Source of the DNA: a virus
Virus record (IMG/VR): IMGVR_UViG_3300021417_000055
Span: 1 to 20,538 of that record
DNA: 20,538 nucleotides
Direction: 5' to 3' (one strand)
Shown: positions 2,839 through 13,891 of the stretch, in pieces
Numbering within the stretch: position 1 is the first letter of the stretch
Layout of the letters: each line of letters begins with the position of its first letter
Notes under the pieces: generated by a model
Database searches by the model: none
What the model was told of the DNA's origin: nothing
Seen by the model: the letters and a program-made list of their open reading frames with translations, nothing else
Program-made: the position numbers and the translations under genes

Positions 2839-2890
2839 GTGCAACACAGGTGCAACATATTTCCAAATTTAAAGATAACTGGTGCAACAT
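2839..2890 (+). promoter_or_regulatory. Left integrase arm-site cluster, GTGCAACA(C/T) x3
   Basis: Three same-strand copies lie at 2839-2847 (ending C), 2850-2858 (T) and 2882-2890 (T). The same 9-mer occurs three times at the other end of the element. Repeats flanking the att core at both ends are the hallmark of arm-type sites bound by the N-terminal domain of tyrosine integrases. The third copy runs into the integrase start codon at 2889, so integrase binding could also repress its own gene. Confidence 0.7.
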
Positions 2891-4145
2891 GGAAACGATC
2901 AAAATCAAACTTACAGAATCAGTGATTAAAGGAGTCCCAACAGACGTAGAACGGATTACCGATACAGAAATAAATGGTTTTCACCTTCGTATTGGTAAAC
3001 CTTTAAAAGATGGAAGCAGGACCAAGAAATACTATCTCTACTACCGCTTAGGTGGCAGGGGGAGCAAAGCGGGTAATTATTTAATAGGCAGCACCAATAC
3101 AATAGATCTAAAAGACGCGCGTAAAAGGGCTAAAGATTTAATAGGCCAGGTTTCCAGAGGTATCGACATTTGTGGAGAAAAGCAAACTAATAAGCAGACT
3201 CAGACTAACCTTCACAGATCAGCAAAAGTTAGCGATCTGCTGGATGCTTTCGAGGGACACATAAAGATTCAGCGTAAAAGACCAGAAGAAGTCGTGAGAG
3301 CATTCAAGGCTGACGTTAGACCCACTATCGGTAAGTTAAGGCTTGCAGGTATTTCAAAGCAAGTAATCGTCGAAAAATGTTTGAATCCTATAATTAAGAG
3401 AGACGCATTGGTTCAAGCTAATAAAACCCTGTCGTTACTAAAACAGACTTTCCAATTTGGAGTAGAAACAGGACTAATTGAGCAGAACCCTTTAATTGGA
3501 ACCCGGCGACAAAATATTGGAGGCAAGGAAAAACCAAGATCGCGTAACTTAGCAAAGCAGGAACTAAAGTCATTCTTCACATGGTTGAATACATCAACTG
3601 CGAGTCTACAAGTAAGACAAGCATTAAAGTTACTTTTACTCACCGGTTGTAGAGCCCAAGAAATGACCTTAGCAAAGTGGAGCAATATAGATTTCAAAAA
3701 ACAACTCTGGACCTTCCCTGAATGTGACAGAAAAGGTAACAAGGGAGAAACCAAAAGTCATGTTGTGCCGATAACGCCAATGATGAAATCATCTTTATTA
3801 ACTCTGAAATCAGCTTATTCAGATTTAGGCTCAGACTATGTTTTTCCATCTACTGCAGGGAAAATCGGAATTGAGCCCATAGATAGATCAGCCTGTGCAA
3901 AGTTTTTACGCAGACGATTTGAGAACGACGAAATTAAGCTAGAAAAATTCGTACCCCACGATTTGCGCAGAACATTTCAAACTCTCTTAAGCAGTCTAGG
4001 TGTAGACGCTATTGTGTGCGAAAAGCTGTTAAGCCATGAATTACAAGGTATGCTCAAGATATATAACCAGTATGATTATATGAAAGAAAGAAAAGCCGCT
4101 TTAATAATGTGGGACAAATGGTTAACCGAACAAGGTATTCTGTGA
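2889..4145 (+). CDS. int: P4-type tyrosine integrase
   Basis: This site-specific recombinase of 418 aa catalyses integration and excision between the tRNA-Pro attB site and the satellite attP site. The N-terminal ~90 residues (TDTEINGFHLRIG, then a KKYYLYYRLGG region) match the DUF4102-type arm-binding domain of P4-like integrases. A core-binding helical domain follows. The catalytic set is complete: Arg255 (LLTGCRAQEM), His357 and Arg360 (HDLRRT), His383 (LSHE) and the nucleophile Tyr392 (IYNQYDY). I chose ATG 2889 over the upstream in-frame GTG at 2850. METIKIKLTE begins the conserved domain, and the longer start would translate through arm repeats. It lies about 200 bp inside attL, the normal place for an integrase. 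The next gene starts on its stop codon (TGATG). Confidence 0.95.
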   Translation: METIKIKLTESVIKGVPTDVERITDTEINGFHLRIGKPLKDGSRTKKYYLYYRLGGRGSKAGNYLIGSTNTIDLKDARKRAKDLIGQVSRGIDICGEKQTNKQTQTNLHRSAKVSDLLDAFEGHIKIQRKRPEEVVRAFKADVRPTIGKLRLAGISKQVIVEKCLNPIIKRDALVQANKTLSLLKQTFQFGVETGLIEQNPLIGTRRQNIGGKEKPRSRNLAKQELKSFFTWLNTSTASLQVRQALKLLLLTGCRAQEMTLAKWSNIDFKKQLWTFPECDRKGNKGETKSHVVPITPMMKSSLLTLKSAYSDLGSDYVFPSTAGKIGIEPIDRSACAKFLRRRFENDEIKLEKFVPHDLRRTFQTLLSSLGVDAIVCEKLLSHELQGMLKIYNQYDYMKERKAALIMWDKWLTEQGIL

Positions 4146-4732: not shown

Positions 4733-4805
4733 AAGTTATTTCCTATGATCTCCGATTCTCAGATATAAGATGGGTATCGTCATCTATAAACACGAGGCGA
4801 TAACT

Positions 4806-5015
4806 ATGAACTTACTGACATCACAAGAAGCTGCAACATATCTAGGCTTCAAAGAAGCTACACTACGCAACAGTCGTTGCACATCAAAACTAGCAAACAT
4901 TCCAACACCGCGTTATCTCAAACTCGGAAACACTGTCCGTTACAAAAGAGAGGACTTAGATAACTGGCTAGACTCATTAAATGCATACGCTGTATGCCAA
5001 GGTGAGGAGGCTTAA
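4806..5015 (+). CDS. alpA: AlpA-like helix-turn-helix regulator/excisionase
   Basis: The 69-aa protein is a MerR/excisionase-type winged helix of the AlpA class. It shows LTSQEAATYLGF (first helix and turn), KEATLRNSR (recognition helix), then PRYLKLGNTVRYKREDLDNWL (wing and final helix). In P4-like elements and gram-negative PICIs, AlpA acts as activator and as recombination directionality factor. I chose ATG 4806, preceded by GAGGCG, over an ATG at 4770 that would add 12 unconserved residues. It ends 2 bp before the next gene, so it is co-transcribed with the replication genes. It is the likely switch between the integrated and excised states, possibly under helper-phage control. Confidence 0.85.
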   Translation: MNLLTSQEAATYLGFKEATLRNSRCTSKLANIPTPRYLKLGNTVRYKREDLDNWLDSLNAYAVCQGEEA

Positions 5016-5843: not shown

Positions 5844-5861
5844 TAAAGATTGGAGTCCAAC

Positions 5862-7853
5862 ATGCAACCTAAAAGATCAGGTGGCCCTATGCCACCTGCT
5901 CTTCACTCTTTGTCCTTGAATCAGGGTTATCCAGAGGAATTAAAAGCTTTTAACCAATGGCTTTTATATCGCCTGCAATGGAACGAGAGTAAGAGCAAAT
6001 ACAATAAAATTCCTTCAACAATTAACAATGGGCGATTGATAAACGGCAGCAAAACCAACGAAGCGCACTGGATGAGTTTTGATACTGCAATACATCATCT
6101 TGAGCAAGGTTTAGGTGATGGACTTGGATTTTGTATAACGCCATACGATCCATTTCTATGTTTAGATTTTGACAAGTGTATTCAAGAGCCTTGGTGTTTT
6201 GAAGCCATTAAAAATTTTGATAGTGCTGCAGAATTATCTGTTTCAAAAGAAGGTTGTCATATTTTTATTGAAGCAGAAAAGCCCGGTGGAATGGGCACTA
6301 AAAGTAAGACCTTCCACAATAGCAAAGTTGAAATACTGGGAAACGGACAATTCGTTGCTCTCACCGGGGAGTTCAATGGAAAGCCTGTCGCAAACCGGCA
6401 ATCATTATTGCTGGAATTTGCCGCACCTTTGCAAAAACAGAAAGAAAAAATATCTGTTCAAGCAAAACAGTCTGAATGCTCAGAAACAGCAAGCAATGTT
6501 CTAGAGAAATTAAAACAAAGCAGATTTGCTGAGTCTTTTACCAAGCTGTTTGAAGGTTGCAATCTGTCAGATGATACCAGCGCTGATGACTTAGTATTCT
6601 GCAATTACGTAGCGTCAGTTGCTTCCGATCCTGTTGTGATAGATGTGATTTACCGGCAATCAAATCGATACCGGGATAAGTGGGACCAAAAACGAGGACA
6701 ACACACCTACGGCGAACTAACAATTGAAAAAGCCCTGAGTTCAGCAAATCCATTAATTAAACAGTCTGCTACTGAAGCGTTTGCAGGTATGGCTGTACCT
6801 CAACCGGTGCCTCCTTCCCCATCATCTAAACAAGGTTTTTCGTTCGATAAATTCGTTATGAATGAGCATATCGAGGAGCTGCAGAAGAAAGCGTTGGAGG
6901 ACAAATTTGTACTTCCTAAACTTGCAATATATGGACAACTGACAGTATTTTTCGCAGAACCCAATACAGGGAAAACTATATTAACGATTCATCAGATAAT
7001 AGAAAACATTCGCAGCGGTGAAATTGATGGTCACAATGTTTACTATCTAAATTGTGATGACACTTACAATGAGGGCCTTGTTAAAGCTAGGATTATGGAC
7101 GAATTTGGCATCAATTGTATTGTTCCCGATATAAATGGATTTAAGCTATCTGAATTTCCTGAGTATTTAGAAAAAATAGTCAACGAAGACTCTGCGACCG
7201 GTAAAATTATGGTTTTAGACACGCTTAAGAAATTCTCCGACATCATGAATAAAAAGAAGTCTACTATTTTTAATACGCTCGCCCGACGATTTACGCAGAA
7301 AGGAGGTACCCTCATTGCGCTTGCACACACTAATAAAAATAGAGCTGAAGATGGGAGTTTGATCGCGGCTGGCACGTCAGATGTTGTTGATGACTTTGAT
7401 TGTGCTTTTACTATTGATGTTCTTGAAACCAACGATTCTGACTTGAGGACGGTTCAATTTAAAAATATAAAACAAAGAGGAAATGTATCTCGCAAAGTCT
7501 CTTTTAGCTATTCCACAAGGGAGGGGATAAAATATCAAGAATTATTGGATAGCGTTACTCGTTTAGATGAGACAAAAACCCAGCAACGTGAGATTGAAGC
7601 GAAAGTTAAGTCTGATGCAGAGCTAATCAATATTATCTGCCAGAACATTAATAAAGGTAATGTAAAACGCACTGAATTGATAAACGCTTCACACAAAGAA
7701 AGTAAATCCTTTGCCAGCCGCAAAGACGTCGAACGAGTTCTTAACCAGTATACCGGTGATGATTACTCACAAGGTGATCGTTGGTTAGTCAAAATCGGGG
7801 ATAAAAATTCACACACCTATACGATATTAACTCCCAAACTCCCTACCCCCTAG
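5862..7853 (+). CDS. Satellite replication protein: primase-like domain plus RepA-type helicase
   Basis: The 663-aa protein has two apparent enzymatic parts. Residues about 25-190 resemble an archaeo-eukaryotic-type primase/polymerase module of phage and plasmid replicases: LLYRLQWNESKSKYNKIP, a metal-binding-type CLDFDKC, then HIFIEAEKPGG. Residues about 340-560 form a RecA-like ATPase of the RepA/AAA_25 class. They carry a Walker A EPNTGKT near residue 366, a Walker B GKIMVLDTL, and a sensor-type LIALAHTNKNR. The C-terminal ~90 residues look like a winged-helix tail that could bind an origin. ATG 5862 with GGAG upstream is preferred to TTG 5850. It is the last gene of the early operon and ends at a strong terminator. 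Family membership is clear in outline; the origin was not located. Confidence 0.85.
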   Translation: MQPKRSGGPMPPALHSLSLNQGYPEELKAFNQWLLYRLQWNESKSKYNKIPSTINNGRLINGSKTNEAHWMSFDTAIHHLEQGLGDGLGFCITPYDPFLCLDFDKCIQEPWCFEAIKNFDSAAELSVSKEGCHIFIEAEKPGGMGTKSKTFHNSKVEILGNGQFVALTGEFNGKPVANRQSLLLEFAAPLQKQKEKISVQAKQSECSETASNVLEKLKQSRFAESFTKLFEGCNLSDDTSADDLVFCNYVASVASDPVVIDVIYRQSNRYRDKWDQKRGQHTYGELTIEKALSSANPLIKQSATEAFAGMAVPQPVPPSPSSKQGFSFDKFVMNEHIEELQKKALEDKFVLPKLAIYGQLTVFFAEPNTGKTILTIHQIIENIRSGEIDGHNVYYLNCDDTYNEGLVKARIMDEFGINCIVPDINGFKLSEFPEYLEKIVNEDSATGKIMVLDTLKKFSDIMNKKKSTIFNTLARRFTQKGGTLIALAHTNKNRAEDGSLIAAGTSDVVDDFDCAFTIDVLETNDSDLRTVQFKNIKQRGNVSRKVSFSYSTREGIKYQELLDSVTRLDETKTQQREIEAKVKSDAELINIICQNINKGNVKRTELINASHKESKSFASRKDVERVLNQYTGDDYSQGDRWLVKIGDKNSHTYTILTPKLPTP

Positions 7854-7863
7854 AAACTTCCGA

Positions 7864-7906
7864 AACATCCCAAACACACGTGACATCTAAGTTTGGGATG
7901 TTTTTT
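7864..7906 (+). terminator. Strong intrinsic terminator ending the early operon
   Basis: A perfect 12-bp stem pairs AACATCCCAAAC at 7864-7875 with GTTTGGGATGTT at 7891-7902, followed by TTTTTT. It lies directly after the replication gene and separates the satellite core from the nuclease cassette. The rest of the gap to 8028 is AT-rich and probably holds the cassette promoter. Confidence 0.9.
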
Positions 7907-8028: not shown

Positions 8029-8970
8029 ATGAGATATTTTGCTGTCTTCATTACACTTCTAATTTTCTCTTCAAATGCTAACGCACTCAGATTAAAAGAT
8101 TGCAAACTCACGGAAAGCCAAGAACAAGCAAGCTTAGATGAACACATATATGGTGGCTCTTTAGACGATTCTAAGCTGTATGAACGACGAGCTTATGTTC
8201 TAGCTTACGATGACGCTAATTTAGTACCTAAATGGGCTGCTTGGCACGCTCAAAAATCTTATCGTGACACTCCTACTCGAAAGTCAAGATGGTCAAGTTT
8301 TAGAACCGACCCTGAAATAAGTACGGTCAAAGACGATGATTACGTTGGCTGGTACGACTCAGAGAAAAATTATGCAAGAGGCCATATAGTTCCGTACTAC
8401 ATATCGGGTGGAGATCGTGATCATGATGGTAAAAATGCATATTACGAAGATCAAAGTATTGAAGATGTTGATGACGCTTGCACAATTTATGAAGTAAATT
8501 CCATGTCAAATATTGCTCCGCAATACCACGACAAGTTTAATGGTGTAGGCGGTGGTTTATGGTATGCATTAGAAACAGACATTAGGGCATTAATCGATAA
8601 TGGCGCTTCATTTAATATTTATGCTGGAACTATTTTCTCAGCTAACACGCCCATTGAAAGAATTGGCGATAGAGACGACGAAGCAAGCACATGGAAGATT
8701 GGTGTACCACATGGATTTTTTAAAGTAGTAATCAATGATCAACGTGATGAAGCGGTTGCATTTATTTTCGATCATGCCAGCAATTTAGAAACAGGTTGCG
8801 ACTTGGCTAGTATATCTGTTAGATACCCTTCTGACTGCATACGTCCAATTGAAGAAGTAGAAAAGCTCACAGGATTAACATTTTTCAAAAAAATTGAAGG
8901 TCCTCTAAAACAACGGCTACGAACTACTAGTAAAAAAGAAACTTGGATTTCTTGGTTAAGTAAGTATTGA
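8029..8970 (+). CDS. Exported DNA/RNA non-specific endonuclease (NUC family)
   Basis: The 313-aa protein has a Sec signal peptide (MRYFAVFITLLIFSSNANA, cleavage after about residue 19), so the nuclease should act in the periplasm or outside. The beta-beta-alpha-metal NUC domain is recognisable: ERRAYVLAYDDANLVPKWAAW, then ARGHIVP with catalytic His119. SNIAPQ follows, with Asn161, and KFNGVGGGLW contains the likely metal ligand Asn171. The canonical DRGH motif reads ARGH here (Ala116), a change at a residue that helps catalysis in Serratia nuclease. A C-terminal extension of about 50 residues is basic. Four Cys residues in the mature part fit an exported protein. It lies 10 bp before the membrane coiled-coil gene, so the two are probably co-expressed. 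Plausible roles are degrading incoming phage DNA or nutrient scavenging; the satellite context favours the former. Confidence 0.85.
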   Translation: MRYFAVFITLLIFSSNANALRLKDCKLTESQEQASLDEHIYGGSLDDSKLYERRAYVLAYDDANLVPKWAAWHAQKSYRDTPTRKSRWSSFRTDPEISTVKDDDYVGWYDSEKNYARGHIVPYYISGGDRDHDGKNAYYEDQSIEDVDDACTIYEVNSMSNIAPQYHDKFNGVGGGLWYALETDIRALIDNGASFNIYAGTIFSANTPIERIGDRDDEASTWKIGVPHGFFKVVINDQRDEAVAFIFDHASNLETGCDLASISVRYPSDCIRPIEEVEKLTGLTFFKKIEGPLKQRLRTTSKKETWISWLSKY

Positions 8971-8980
8971 GATTAATAAA

Positions 8981-10183
8981 ATGAGTGCTGGTTTCACAGA
9001 TACGATTCAAAACTTTTTAAAAAGTGCATCAGATAGAATAAACAACCCATTTATTTTTAGTTTTTGCGTGAGCTTTTTAATTGTTCACTTTGATGCATTT
9101 TTATATTTAATTTTAAGCGACGATTATGTAAACGAAAGAATAAGAGTCTTTTATGAATTACTTGGTAAAAACGAAAAAACTCTTCAAATATCCTCAACCC
9201 TTGACTCTATTTTCTTACCATTAATCCTTGCTTCGGCGTACACTTTCGGATGGCCATACATTGATAAAATAATAGAATTATTTCGAGCAAAATCAGGCAT
9301 ATATCTCAATGATAAAATTTCAGACATTCTAAAAACGAAAACATATTCATACGAAGACGTTGAGAAATTAATCGAACAAAAAGATACAGCAATAAAAAGA
9401 ACGGTTGAACAAGAAGCAACCATAGATAACAACACCCAAACACTCAGCCGAAATAGACAGTTAATTGCTGAAAGAGATGAACAGGTCGAAAGTCTTAAAG
9501 CTGACAATGAACAGATTAAATCTAAGCTTAATTCGAATTCTGACAGAATATCTATATTAATGAAGAAAAATGGCGAATTATTAGATAACAACAAAAGGTT
9601 AACTGAAATAGCCAGCGACTATGAAAAGAAAAACTTGAAAGTTTTTGATGATATTGGAAGGTTAAAAAAAGAGTTAGAAATAGAAAAGGAAAGAGCAATT
9701 CTAAATCACTCAATACCTTTTGAGTTTCCAAACGAAAAATTTTCTCCAAAAGAAAGTTCTAACACTGTAGAACTTATGGAACACGCGATTAAAATCATAA
9801 GAAACATATTTATCAGAAGTGTCGGAATATTTATTTTTAAAACTCAAAAAGAGCCACTTATAAGAGAGTTCTTCATAGAGAATCTTCTAAACCTGTCGCA
9901 GGAGACTTTAGATAAGGAATTTCCAAAAGGTGACTATATGCGTGATTATTCTTGGGAACTTATGGAAGAAACAGTTCCAAAATTCATCGTCTATTCCACT
10001 CGAAAATTCATGAGTGAGCGAGCCATCAATAATGCGAATAATATTACTCTAGTAAAGAATCATATAGATAGGAGTTTAAAATTAATTGAAAGCGTACCTT
10101 TAGTTGATGTTTTGGAATATATAAATAAATGCATTAATTTTGATAATTATAGTAACTCCCAGTCATCCCCTGATAGTGACTGA
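8981..10183 (+). CDS. Membrane-anchored coiled-coil protein of unknown function
   Basis: The 400-aa protein has two N-terminal hydrophobic segments (about 22-46 and 74-92). They are introduced by DRINNPFIFSF, a pattern I associate with uncharacterised membrane proteins of accessory regions. A long charged coiled coil spans about 120-245, with regular Leu/Ile spacing (EQVESLKADNEQIKSKL). A helical C-terminal domain (about 250-385) follows. No enzymatic motif is evident. It follows the nuclease gene by 10 bp, though its ribosome site is weak, which suggests coupling to the upstream gene. Its 3' end overlaps the oppositely oriented small-terminase gene by 37 bp. With the nuclease it could form a two-gene defence or exclusion unit, the coiled coil acting as sensor or scaffold at the inner membrane. 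This is inference; I do not recognise the family. Confidence 0.75.
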   Translation: MSAGFTDTIQNFLKSASDRINNPFIFSFCVSFLIVHFDAFLYLILSDDYVNERIRVFYELLGKNEKTLQISSTLDSIFLPLILASAYTFGWPYIDKIIELFRAKSGIYLNDKISDILKTKTYSYEDVEKLIEQKDTAIKRTVEQEATIDNNTQTLSRNRQLIAERDEQVESLKADNEQIKSKLNSNSDRISILMKKNGELLDNNKRLTEIASDYEKKNLKVFDDIGRLKKELEIEKERAILNHSIPFEFPNEKFSPKESSNTVELMEHAIKIIRNIFIRSVGIFIFKTQKEPLIREFFIENLLNLSQETLDKEFPKGDYMRDYSWELMEETVPKFIVYSTRKFMSERAINNANNITLVKNHIDRSLKLIESVPLVDVLEYINKCINFDNYSNSQSSPDSD

Positions 10184-10509
10184 CCAGATAGCTCAACACC
10201 ACGGCTAGCAGGGCTCATTTTAAACTGTGATAGATAATGTTTAACTTGGGCCTGAGACTCTTTTAGCAACTCAAATGAGGGATTCCGTTTTCTAACGATA
10301 TGACCGCGATCACCAGACACCTCAACATGAATACCGTTTTCCTTTAAATCTTCCCGGCATTCTTCCACTGTCGCGAGATTGCAGGCAAGCATACCAAGAG
10401 CATAATAATCGATACTTTGAACCGGTGTTCCGCGTTCTTGCAACACAGTTAAGAGCTTACGCCAGTAGCGCTTTTCTAATGTCGTTTTAACGTAATCAGG
10501 GGCTTTCAT
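10147..10509 (-). CDS. terS: Phage terminase small subunit, P27 family
   Basis: The 120-aa protein fits the P27 small-terminase pattern: a tryptophan-containing first helix (RYWRKLLTVL), a middle helix after SIDYYALGMLACNL, a G/R-rich strand, NPSFELLKESQAQVKHYL, and a closing SPASRGVEL resembling the family's GLtPasR ending. Small terminases recognise the packaging site on DNA and recruit the large subunit. ATG 10509 is preceded by AAGAGG. It is the last gene of the leftward morphogenesis operon. A large terminase would normally follow, but none is present. The partner would therefore be a helper-phage motor, or a host-encoded one elsewhere. Confidence 0.8.
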   Translation of the reverse strand: MKAPDYVKTTLEKRYWRKLLTVLQERGTPVQSIDYYALGMLACNLATVEECREDLKENGIHVEVSGDRGHIVRKRNPSFELLKESQAQVKHYLSQFKMSPASRGVELSGQSLSGDDWELL

Positions 10510-10594
10510 AGCGGCCTCTTAAAGATGGTGGGGAATAAATGCCGGTCCAATTTGGGTATAAACGACCAAAGCGGGGATGGTCGAGTGTTCTTGA

Positions 10595-11800
10595 TTATTC
10601 ATCAACCTCCCCCCCGTTGTGTTCAACCTGGCCTTTTTGAATCCATGACTGAGAATACTCATCACCACCTTCTCTTGGCGCTAAATTCTCTGCTCTTCTG
10701 CATTCATTGGGATTCATGATGCCATTGCGAATGGCTGTATCGTAGACTTCAAAGCGTTCAGCCGTAGAGCCACGTAACAGGTCTTTGGTCTCAAATTCAA
10801 TGTTAATCCTGAGACTATTTCTTTCCGAAACGAGACAATCATTCAGGGCACTTTGTATATTTGTGAGCCATGGACGTAGGGATTGAGACAGAAATGAACG
10901 TTGGGCCTCACTGTGATTGTTGAATGTACTGTGTGAGTAATCCATCAAAAAGATAGGACTCAGCTTAAACATACGAGCTACATCAACAACACTGAAGTTA
11001 CGGCTCTCTAACCATTCAGCATCGACATTACTGAGACTAATACTCTGCCATTTGAGACCATTTTCAAGAATTGGCGTTTTACCTACATTCTTTGACCCAC
11101 TGAATTTACTATTCCATTCGTCACTAAGACGCTTAATAGCATTACCCTTGTCACTAAACTCATTGTCAGTAGTTAAAATGCCTGAAGGTCTGGCTGAGTT
11201 TTTAAATGTTACAGCTCCGAATTCCTGTTGAGCCAGTCCCAAACCGATAGACTCACGACATACTTGGATAGGGCTTTTACCGGTTATGCCATCATCACTG
11301 TGATATTTGATATGTAAGATCTGCTCTTGAAGCAAGTTTTGAGTATCGCCATTGTCAAAATCAACCTGATAACCAATCCGCTTCGTTGATAGCTTTTTGA
11401 TTATCACAGAGTCAGGGTGAAGCCAGTGTAAACCTGCCACTCTGCCAGCCCTGTCATAGTCGATATAAGCGTAACCATTACCTCTTAATAGGATTGAACG
11501 CATTAAGGCAATCATGAAATCATAGCTTGTCTGGTAGCCGTTTGGTTTACGGTTTAACAGCTTATCCAAATAATGCTCCTGGACACGCTCTCGTTCATTG
11601 TTGTCACGCTTTTGATAGATATGAATAGGCAGGCTGGCTATCGCCTCAGCAATCGTAGAGACAGCGCAATACACAGCTGGTAAAGACTGTGCCGTTTCAG
11701 CGTTAACTGCTTTGCCAGAAGACGTTTGTACACCAAAGCCAAGGGACTGTAGTAAGCTCCAATTGCTATTAGGATTGCTGCGTTTAAATAACCCGAACAT
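10595..11800 (-). CDS. Phage portal protein, HK97 family
   Basis: The 401-aa protein forms the dodecameric ring at one capsid vertex, through which DNA enters and leaves. Family features are plain: AVYCAVSTIAEAIASLPIHIY near the N-terminus, a GNGYAYIDYD strand, LHPDSV, and a clip/stem region around SNVDAEWLESRNFSVVDVARMFKLSP. A C-terminal RNGIMNPNECRRAENLAP completes the pattern. Its length is normal for the family. ATG 11800 has a perfect AGGAGG site and overlaps the protease stop codon by one base (TAATG), so the two are translationally coupled. An 85-bp gap separates it from terS. Confidence 0.95.
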   Translation of the reverse strand: MFGLFKRSNPNSNWSLLQSLGFGVQTSSGKAVNAETAQSLPAVYCAVSTIAEAIASLPIHIYQKRDNNERERVQEHYLDKLLNRKPNGYQTSYDFMIALMRSILLRGNGYAYIDYDRAGRVAGLHWLHPDSVIIKKLSTKRIGYQVDFDNGDTQNLLQEQILHIKYHSDDGITGKSPIQVCRESIGLGLAQQEFGAVTFKNSARPSGILTTDNEFSDKGNAIKRLSDEWNSKFSGSKNVGKTPILENGLKWQSISLSNVDAEWLESRNFSVVDVARMFKLSPIFLMDYSHSTFNNHSEAQRSFLSQSLRPWLTNIQSALNDCLVSERNSLRINIEFETKDLLRGSTAERFEVYDTAIRNGIMNPNECRRAENLAPREGGDEYSQSWIQKGQVEHNGGEVDE

Positions 11801-12330
11801 TACAACACCTCCTGCAATGCGAAATATTGACGGAATGCTGAAAGCCGGGGCTGGTTATTCTGAAGATTGCGTAAAGCTACTTCAGTATTTCGATAAGCTG
11901 GATTACTTGTAATAGTGATTTCATGCAGTACGGCTTTATTCACCGTTCTGAGAGTAAGAGTTTTTGTGTAATCCCATGAATCACCACCAGCAGGAACAGT
12001 AAAACCAAACGACATTCCGCTAATGTCACCACGCTGTATTGATACCATTAGATCGCGAGCAGCTTGTGTATCAGGCGGGTCAATTTCAATAGTGATACCG
12101 GTGCTATCTTCGGCAATGCGAAGTGTACCGGACTGAGTACGGCCCAACAGTAAATGAGGTATATGCTCTACTAAGGCTCGAATATCACCAGATACAGACT
12201 CTTTAAAAGCACCGGTGGCGATAACCTCAGTAAAGCCCCCTAAATTCTCAGACTGGGCACCATAAATGATAGGCCGACCGACGATCTTTCGACCATCGAC
12301 CGACACACTGGATATTGAACGACATTCCAT
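11800..12330 (-). CDS. Prohead maturation protease, HK97 family
   Basis: The 176-aa serine protease (peptidase family U35/S78) cleaves the capsid scaffold during head maturation. It has the expected order: RALVEHIPHLLLGRT with the catalytic-position His, a TQAARDLMVSIQRGD helix, GMSFGF with the nucleophile Ser, and HEITITSNPAYRNTEV near the end. The usual NHD around the His reads EHI, a minor departure. ATG 12330 follows the capsid gene by 8 bp with an AGGTGA ribosome site. The order here, capsid then protease then portal, is reversed relative to classical HK97 phages. Confidence 0.93.
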   Translation of the reverse strand: MECRSISSVSVDGRKIVGRPIIYGAQSENLGGFTEVIATGAFKESVSGDIRALVEHIPHLLLGRTQSGTLRIAEDSTGITIEIDPPDTQAARDLMVSIQRGDISGMSFGFTVPAGGDSWDYTKTLTLRTVNKAVLHEITITSNPAYRNTEVALRNLQNNQPRLSAFRQYFALQEVL

Positions 12331-12338
12331 AGAATCAC

Positions 12339-13496
12339 CTATGCAGCCGCTTTAAGGATCTTGATAGCGTTACTATCAACCAGACCGCCACCAACATAAC
12401 GAGTTGCCAGCATTTTAACGAAACCGGGTTTAGTAATGTTGTCACGAATTAAACGAGTGCCAGTGCTGTGGTCGATAACGTAATATGCCAGAGCCAGATC
12501 ACCAAATACCACTTCATCATCTGGTACCTGGTCTGAAATCACTACCGGTTTACCAAGTAACGTAGTCGGCTGACCTTCTTGAACACTATCACGCCAAATA
12601 TACTCATCCTGATTGTTTTTCAGTTTACGTAGGGTCATTGCCATTGTGTCTGAAAGATAGAACTTACCGCCCGGACGATAAGCGATAGCAAGACTGTGAT
12701 AGAAAGTAATCAGATCATCAAAATCGATTACCCCTGATGCTGCGCTGGTAACTTCCTGCAACTGACCAAATGTGCGAGAACTATCATTACTTGCAGAGCG
12801 AGTATAAGTAAGTAAACCTTTTGGTTTCTTGGTGCCATCACCGTTCCAGAATGCCGCCTCTTCTTTCAGTACAGACTCTGCAGTGATTTCTGATGATAAC
12901 CAGCCAGCAACGTCAAAGTCTGACCAATCCAGCAATTCCTGTGTGGTTTGAGGATATGCATAGAGGCTATTCACGCTAATAGCTACTTCCTGCAGTGAAC
13001 TGGTATTAGTCTCATTCCGGGTATCAGATTCAGCCGCCCATTCAGTAGTAGTGCCACCAGTGGAGACCAGCTTTTTATAGGTTTCAGTGCCAATACTTTT
13101 AACAGTAGCATTCTGACGAAATACAGAACGCTCTCGTAGCTGTTTATGAATTGTTTTGTCTACAGATGGAATGACAGTGTAACCACCATCAGAATCAGAG
13201 CCCGCAGATAAAGAACGGCGATCACCTGTCACAACAAAAGCACGTAGCTCACTATTACTAGGTGCATTGATGTCATTACCCGGCATGGTGCCAATCAGAG
13301 AGCGTTCTTCCTCAGCTAACAATTCATGATGCTCAATAGCAGCATTAATTTGTTCTATCTGATTTCGGTATTCACTGAGACTACGGCTTTCTTGCTCAGT
13401 CAGATTGCGCTTTTCTGTCTCAGAACCAGTGAGAATTGCTTTTGATTTCTGCACCAGTTCGGCTTTTTGTTGGCGTAATTCAAGTAAGTGTTTCAT
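12339..13496 (-). CDS. Major capsid protein, HK97 fold
   Basis: The 385-aa protein has the same length as HK97 gp5. Residues 1 to about 70 (MKHLLELRQQKAELVQKSK and the following Gln/Glu-rich helices) form the delta scaffold that the adjacent protease would remove. The GGYTVIP start of the mature shell domain is near residue 103. Family signatures include TTEWAAES, AFWNGDGTKKPKGLL and LLGKPVVISDQVP. ATG 13496 with GAGG upstream is preferred to an upstream in-frame start at 13565, which would add a hydrophobic, unrelated stretch from AT-rich leader DNA. Being the first gene of the leftward operon, it is probably the most highly expressed. The satellite thus makes its own shell instead of reusing helper capsids. 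Confidence 0.95.
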   Translation of the reverse strand: MKHLLELRQQKAELVQKSKAILTGSETEKRNLTEQESRSLSEYRNQIEQINAAIEHHELLAEEERSLIGTMPGNDINAPSNSELRAFVVTGDRRSLSAGSDSDGGYTVIPSVDKTIHKQLRERSVFRQNATVKSIGTETYKKLVSTGGTTTEWAAESDTRNETNTSSLQEVAISVNSLYAYPQTTQELLDWSDFDVAGWLSSEITAESVLKEEAAFWNGDGTKKPKGLLTYTRSASNDSSRTFGQLQEVTSAASGVIDFDDLITFYHSLAIAYRPGGKFYLSDTMAMTLRKLKNNQDEYIWRDSVQEGQPTTLLGKPVVISDQVPDDEVVFGDLALAYYVIDHSTGTRLIRDNITKPGFVKMLATRYVGGGLVDSNAIKILKAAA

Positions 13497-13508
13497 TGGA
13501 ACCTCATA

Positions 13509-13603
13509 TTTGCATAAAAAATGAATAACAATGCAAAATATGGGATATTTTGAATATATATGCAATTATTATTTGATAAAACCACATAAATATGCAAAAT
13601 TAT
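13509..13603 (-). promoter_or_regulatory. AT-rich leader of the capsid operon with repeated ATGCAA sites
   Basis: Three plus-strand ATGCAA copies begin at 13531, 13560 and 13592, about 30 bp apart, each followed by an AT-rich tract. An inverted TTTGCAT lies at 13509-13515. On the minus strand these read TTGCAT, close to a -35 box. The array lies just upstream of the capsid start and may be the operon promoter with sites for an activator such as AlpA or a helper protein. No single promoter can be fixed by eye. Confidence 0.4.
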
Positions 13604-13686: not shown

Positions 13687-13718
13687 ATTTCCACGATAAA
13701 TTCTAATGCAAATAAACG

Positions 13719-13767
13719 GTGCAACATACGTGCAACACAGATTAAAAATACTGTATTGGTGCAACAT
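13719..13767 (+). promoter_or_regulatory. Right integrase arm-site cluster, GTGCAACA(C/T) x3
   Basis: Copies lie at 13719-13727 (ending T), 13730-13738 (C) and 13759-13767 (T), all on the plus strand. The 11-bp spacing of the first pair repeats that at the left end. They lie 46-94 bp from the att core and are probable integrase-binding arms for attR. Confidence 0.7.
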
Positions 13768-13812
13768 ACGGGAAATTTAGATTTGATATAAACTATTGAT
13801 ATTGGGGGAGGA

Positions 13813-13860
13813 ATTGGTCGGTGTGAGAGGATTTGAACCTCCGACCCCTGACACCCCATG
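13813..13860. repeat. attR core, 48-bp repeat within tRNA-Pro
   Basis: This is identical to 2638-2685. It covers the tRNA from the anticodon loop to CCA plus three downstream bases. The intact tRNA is reconstituted on this side, so integration does not destroy the gene. Confidence 0.93.
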
Positions 13861-13891
13861 ACAGTGCGCTACCAGGCTGCGCTACACACCG
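13815..13891 (-). tRNA. proL: tRNA-Pro (anticodon GGG)
   Basis: This is a 77-nt cloverleaf on the minus strand with genome-encoded CCA. The acceptor CGGTGTG pairs with CACACCG. The D-arm is GCGCAGCCTGGTAGCGC, the anticodon loop ATGGGGT gives anticodon GGG, and the T-arm GGAGGTTCAAATCCTCT is canonical. The anticodon stem has a U-U mismatch (CTGTC/GTCAG), as in E. coli proL. It is the integration site of the satellite. The 140 bp upstream to 14031 presumably hold its promoter. Confidence 0.96.

Follow-up and report, generated by a model that had tools for sequence, protein, structure and literature searches.

An exported NUC-family nuclease and a fast-diverging membrane coiled-coil protein as candidate phage-exclusion cargo of a cf-PICI-like satellite

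Introduction

SNIPE, a nuclease bound to the membrane, cleaves phage DNA as it is being injected, and its highly variable non-nuclease regions, which accompany a conserved nuclease, are read as specificity adapters (PMC13190303). It is a single protein that combines DUF4041 with a cytoplasmic GIY-YIG domain. In the exclusion exerted by phage T4 the DNA left in the periplasm is cut by endonuclease I of the host. Superinfection exclusion by T4 Imm and Sp relies on a small membrane protein that blocks genome translocation (PMC6832632). P2-like phages and P4-like satellites possess anti-phage hotspots and the gpA-gpQ site of P2 is one of them (PMC9122126). In the NucA-NuiA pair a NUC nuclease has a neighbouring gene that encodes a small soluble inhibitor.

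Here, we analyse a two-gene cassette found in the IMG/VR virus record IMGVR_UViG_3300021417_000055 (20,538 nucleotides; this whole stretch is called the window). It encodes a predicted exported NUC-family endonuclease and a membrane coiled-coil protein (P0002, the partner). With SNIPE it shares membrane anchoring and a nuclease as an envelope strategy as well as a conserved nuclease with a variable remainder, which serves as a working analogy only; it differs in having two genes and a separate, exported NUC enzyme, and neither of its proteins has a Pfam match to DUF4041 or GIY-YIG. In the T4 case, an analogy of mechanism, the nuclease is a host enzyme, whereas the partner of the cassette has a long predicted cytoplasmic coiled coil. 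As in the P2 and P4 hotspots, a variable slot lies between replication and packaging genes, and a relative of the partner (L040) occupies the gpA-gpQ slot of a P2-like prophage; the type of element is different and the antiphage role of the cassette is putative. The likeness to NucA-NuiA is limited to a NUC nuclease with a neighbouring gene: the partner is a fast-diverging membrane protein instead of a small soluble inhibitor, no inhibitor family was found in it in Pfam or NCBIfam, and it matches phrog_4780.

The satellite element and its cargo slot

Within the 20.5-kb record an element of 11.2 kb is flanked by 54-nt direct repeats. Its borders and core genes are as follows.

2632-2685, no strand: attL, copy of the 3' part of tRNA-Pro (54-nt repeat, 96% identical to 13807-13860)
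2850-4145, plus strand: satellite tyrosine integrase (PF00589, E 6.8e-22; phrog_1, E 4.4e-57)
4770-5015, plus strand: AlpA-like helix-turn-helix regulator (PF12728, E 3e-8)
5850-7853, plus strand: primase/helicase-type replication protein (PF22763, E 1.1e-13; phrog_1829 DNA primase, E 5.8e-57)
10147-10509, minus strand: terminase small subunit terS (PF05119, E 4.6e-13), whose stop codon bounds the variable cargo slot
10595-13565, minus strand: satellite portal, prohead protease and major capsid (PF04860, PF04586, PF05065)
13807-13860, no strand: attR, inside the intact tRNA-Pro gene 13815-13891 (minus strand)

The cf-PICI set of integrase, AlpA-like regulator, replication protein, capsid, protease, portal and terS is present between the att repeats, and by its gene content and borders the element is a tRNA-Pro-integrated, capsid-encoding, cf-PICI-like phage satellite. 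No open reading frame for an HNH protein or a large terminase lies between 2632 and 13860 and the related element L099 has both, therefore we speak of a cf-PICI-like element and not of a member of the cf-PICIs. The packaging module (10147-13565) is antiparallel to the integrase-primase operon; in the related elements L099 and L109 both are co-directional. Direct repeats of GTGCAACA are located close to both ends of the element (2838-2877 and 13718-13797) and represent candidate arm-binding sites of the integrase. Around the element host genes are found, namely GH97, beta-lactamase-like, dCTP deaminase-like and Mrp genes, and for the flanking Mrp the nearest genomes in the comparison set are 64-66% identical.

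The cassette is placed after the primase and before the terS/portal/protease/capsid genes, and comprises two ATG-started reading frames on the same strand with a gap of 10 bp.

7862-7904, plus strand: intrinsic terminator at the boundary of primase and cassette (14-bp stem, -20.4 kcal/mol, z -5.1)
8029-8970, plus strand: exported NUC-family (DNA/RNA non-specific) endonuclease, 313 aa (PF01223 Endonuclease_NS)
8029-8085, plus strand: predicted signal peptide of this nuclease, residues 1-19, with AxA cleavage motif (sequence features; retained in the sister gene)
8981-10183, plus strand: predicted inner-membrane hairpin and coiled-coil protein P0002, 400 aa, phrog_4780-like
8981-9331, plus strand: common 2TM anchor domain of P0002, residues 1-117 (family profile built here, 96 bits, a score that holds by construction as P0002 itself is in the profile)
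9716-10180, plus strand: variable C-terminal region of P0002, residues 246-400 (only a self-match in the family set)

The arrangement given in the initial annotation, with two adjacent genes 10 bp apart in one orientation between the replication and capsid modules, is thus confirmed. Its description of the cassette as isolated from the satellite core by a strong terminator is correct for the 5' side only. There the hairpin was equalled by none of 200 shuffles and is also conserved in the sister satellite L004 (a simple scanner misses it because of its loop of 15 nt). On the 3' side the membrane-protein gene and the convergent terS share 37 bp (10147-10183).

Most of the compared sequence of the element is shared with the sister satellite L004 at 93-97% identity, and in the nuclease gene the DNA identity is 86-88%. 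Two other satellites (L090 and L091) are 97% identical to the window from the capsid gene through the terS stop codon and then carry unrelated cargo; homology to L090/L091 and to L004 stops at window positions 10144-10147. In L090 and L091 the slot contains the gene of an exported-looking 173-aa protein, in L090 also that of an ISAs1-like transposase (L090:2837-4588; L091:3736-4257). More distant satellites with 56-62% identical capsids have other cargo after terS in opposite orientation. A membrane protein of 261/262 aa with a weak phrog_8999 match follows terS on the opposite strand in L105 (4659-5444) and L109 (9801-10589) and is possibly a further cargo family, and L106 has a patatin-like fragment in the slot. 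Because the cargo differs between near-identical satellites this region is an accessory slot, and the site is used repeatedly. This agrees with the earlier view of the two genes as accessory cargo.

The exported nuclease

The first gene had been annotated as a NUC endonuclease and His119 named as the residue to mutate, and both assignments hold. Its product matches PF01223 with 91.6 bits against a cut-off of 23 (E 7.6e-26) and shows a detectable relation to the Serratia nuclease (1g8t) in an alignment. The active-site residues are intact, with RGH at 117-119 (H119) and N161 within NIAPQ (161-165), and the motif reads ARGH, i.e. the D of DRGH is replaced by A. The N-terminus (MRYFAVFITLLIFSSNANA, with L following the cleavage point) is composed of n-, h- and AxA c-regions with a 13-residue hydropathy peak of 2.11 at residues 3-15. 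From these N-terminal features it is most likely that the nuclease is exported to the periplasm. Compared with its sister gene in L004 the protein is 93% identical at a dN/dS of 0.047, which suggests strong purifying selection and a retained function.

Scans of viral contigs with each of the two cassette proteins returned L004 only, and a single scan of genome contigs with the nuclease alignment returned only a 44% identical relative on a Hyphomicrobiales plasmid, which is the closest one outside the satellites and has no such partner. Sampling of the related order and class gave no close nuclease, with no positive control in the class sample. Of 394 genomes of the related order, 28 have EndA-like NUC genes of the general type.

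The membrane partner and its family

As the initial annotation had stated, the second gene product has membrane segments and a long coiled coil. Two hydrophobic segments (19-residue windows 27-45 and 68-86) are followed by coiled-coil composition over about 130 residues (from about 120 to 245). P0002 matches phrog_4780 with an E-value of 8.6e-14 over residues 8-218 and phrog_13369 with 1.8e-7. Weak Pfam matches to Proton_antipo_C and RIMB1_N were set aside as coiled-coil matches. Basic residues are enriched past the second helix relative to the loop, and a homologue (L051:8780-9868) is fused to a C-terminal GGDEF (diguanylate cyclase) domain (E 4.1e-29). A GGDEF domain needs a cytoplasmic substrate. 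Judging from this homologue and the flank charges the coiled coil of P0002 most likely faces the cytoplasm. With the nuclease exported, a loop of about 30 residues would then be all that P0002 exposes to it. This predicted topology, with coiled coil and nuclease on opposite faces of the membrane, weakens the earlier proposal that both products meet at the cell envelope.

Both phrog_4780 and phrog_13369 are families without assigned function, and phrog_4780 is modular: in the family alignment the two-helix anchor is common to the members and the remainder is freely different. P0002 has the same 2TM anchor, but its C-terminus is unique and the pairing with NUC is absent in the sampled relatives. 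The order of the nearest relative in the comparison set, sampled with 394 genomes, contributed about 18 true phrog_4780-type members; the many matches confined to profile positions 120-230 were left out as coiled-coil matches.

The initial annotation had proposed to look for the pair in defence islands; the family of the partner groups with defence genes and with cargo sites of phages. Type I restriction-modification adjoins the relatives in L003, L043 and L050, and in L047 (4654-9558) the relative is directly beside HamA and a helicase on the same strand, so that it may be an accessory gene of this Hachiman-like system. HNH and methylase genes are neighbours of the relative in L049, and the relative in L040 lies at the P2 hotspot mentioned above. 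Phage recombination genes are found near the relatives in L042 and L045, and housekeeping genes (e.g., tRNA synthetase and aldehyde dehydrogenase) surround those in L044 and L055. A lone gene opposite to its neighbours is the usual appearance of a moron. In two Klebsiella phages the relative is such a lone gene, antiparallel to the neighbouring lytic genes.

Co-occurrence and divergence of the two genes

A NUC profile search detected no NUC gene near partner-family relatives in 21 neighbourhoods (plus the partial locus L056), which included family members of the related order, a Vibrio plasmid locus and the two Klebsiella phage loci. Members of the partner family can thus do without this nuclease. 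In the reverse direction, the anchor profile recovered its positive controls and found no partner relative near the NUC genes of 39 loci, most of which had flanks as short as about 1.5 kb. The pair is currently known from two sister satellites only (window and L004). The initial annotation had made its proposal of a new two-gene system dependent on co-occurrence of both families elsewhere; with its absence in the 21 and 39 loci this proposal is largely undone, and a recurrent two-gene system is rejected on present data. The accompanying statement that no named defence system has this pair stands: neither protein corresponds to one in PADLOC 2.0.0, NCBIfam or Pfam, and PADLOC 2.0.0 gave no significant match for either of them, only DruC at E 0.085 in the coiled coil.

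The two genes diverge at very different rates. Between window and L004 the partner (P0002 versus P0004) is 29% identical overall and about 30% over the first 182 residues, the rest being unalignable, and its divergence is about twenty times faster than that of the nuclease. A tree built from the anchor domain places P0004 as the sister of P0002 (support 100/99), and gene order and spacing of the cassette are equal in both satellites. From this sisterhood it follows that the nuclease and the partner lineage were kept together through at least one split; with two loci, joint retention is suggestive and not proven. Replacement of the partner by a random family member was considered and, given the same sisterhood, is not supported. 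The synonymous divergence is about 0.18 for integrase and primase and rises to 0.74 for the nuclease, 0.50 for terS and 0.40 for portal. These raised values suggest that the cassette was exchanged, along with the adjoining packaging genes, with a more distant relative; those of terS and portal (10147-11800) are a sign that this flank moved jointly with the cassette.

Possible function of the cassette

As a tentative explanation, in which our confidence stays below even, we suggest that the cassette is moron-like phage-exclusion cargo acting at the envelope, in which an unvarying nuclease is combined with a membrane factor that changes fast. It would exclude incoming phages from the satellite-carrying cell. 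The nuclease would be exported to the periplasm, where it would act as a constant effector without sequence specificity, and the partner would reside in the inner membrane by its two-helix hairpin, with the coiled coil in the cytoplasm and a C-terminus that varies. By acting on the genome-entry step of the phage the partner could stall the DNA outside the cytoplasm, where it would be cut by the nuclease, and the fast-changing partner might set which phages are affected. Since the predicted topology puts both proteins on opposite faces of the membrane, their cooperation may be functional (block, then cut) and need not involve a stable complex. A bolder version is unlikely: a split two-component injection-blocking defence, i.e. 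a two-gene periplasmic counterpart of SNIPE, in which an interchangeable and rapidly diversifying membrane adaptor would choose the phages whose DNA the constant exported NUC nuclease cuts during its passage through the envelope.

Equally likely as the envelope exclusion proposed above, and likewise possible rather than probable, is that promoter and slot are shared by two cargo genes that work independently, with the membrane protein as a stand-alone exclusion or defence factor, as seems to be the case for its relatives, and the nuclease as a separate periplasmic barrier or scavenger. The partner relatives, which occur alone in phages or beside varied systems and never with NUC, are in line with this, as are the plasmid-borne NUC relative without such a partner and the uncoupled coding divergence (93% versus 29%); the identical order and spacing in both satellites and the sisterhood of the partners slightly favour joint keeping instead. 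DNA scavenging and biofilms are ordinary fields of action of secreted NUC nucleases. Shewanella ExeM and Vibrio Dns and Xds are secreted nucleases of marine relatives with roles of this scavenging/biofilm type. That the present enzyme serves scavenging, biofilm or competitor functions outside the cell as a kind of lysogenic conversion, with the partner being incidental, fits the general EndA-like NUC genes in the related order but seems a doubtful account, as it leaves the context of the partner family and the location in a satellite slot unexplained and the sampled order and class lack this NUC subfamily.

A cassette directed at the helper phage or at the life cycle of the satellite itself (interference, particle release or protection of transfer) would suit a capsid-encoding element in which both genes lie between the replication and packaging modules. 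The terminator parts them from the replication operon, however, and near-identical satellites without the cassette show that the life cycle does not require it, which makes this quite improbable. Least of all do we expect a nuclease with its inhibitor or immunity protein, as in NucA-NuiA or an effector-immunity pair. Neutralising neighbours do occur, and on a Tolypothrix plasmid a NUC gene is followed by a gene annotated as "nuclease A inhibitor"; here the partner has changed almost wholly beside a 93% identical nuclease, which is the opposite of a matched inhibitor, and it is a membrane coiled-coil protein located mostly across the membrane from the exported enzyme.

If the pair cooperates as in the proposed envelope exclusion, a secreted unspecific nuclease, directed by a variable membrane protein, would catch phage DNA while it is still outside the cytoplasm, and the distinction of self and non-self would be solved by place. 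Even without cooperation the phrog_4780-type anchor family, with its sites in RM loci, beside HamA/helicase genes, in the P2 hotspot and among phage cargo, is a widespread, unstudied and modular family and a good candidate for roles in exclusion or defence.
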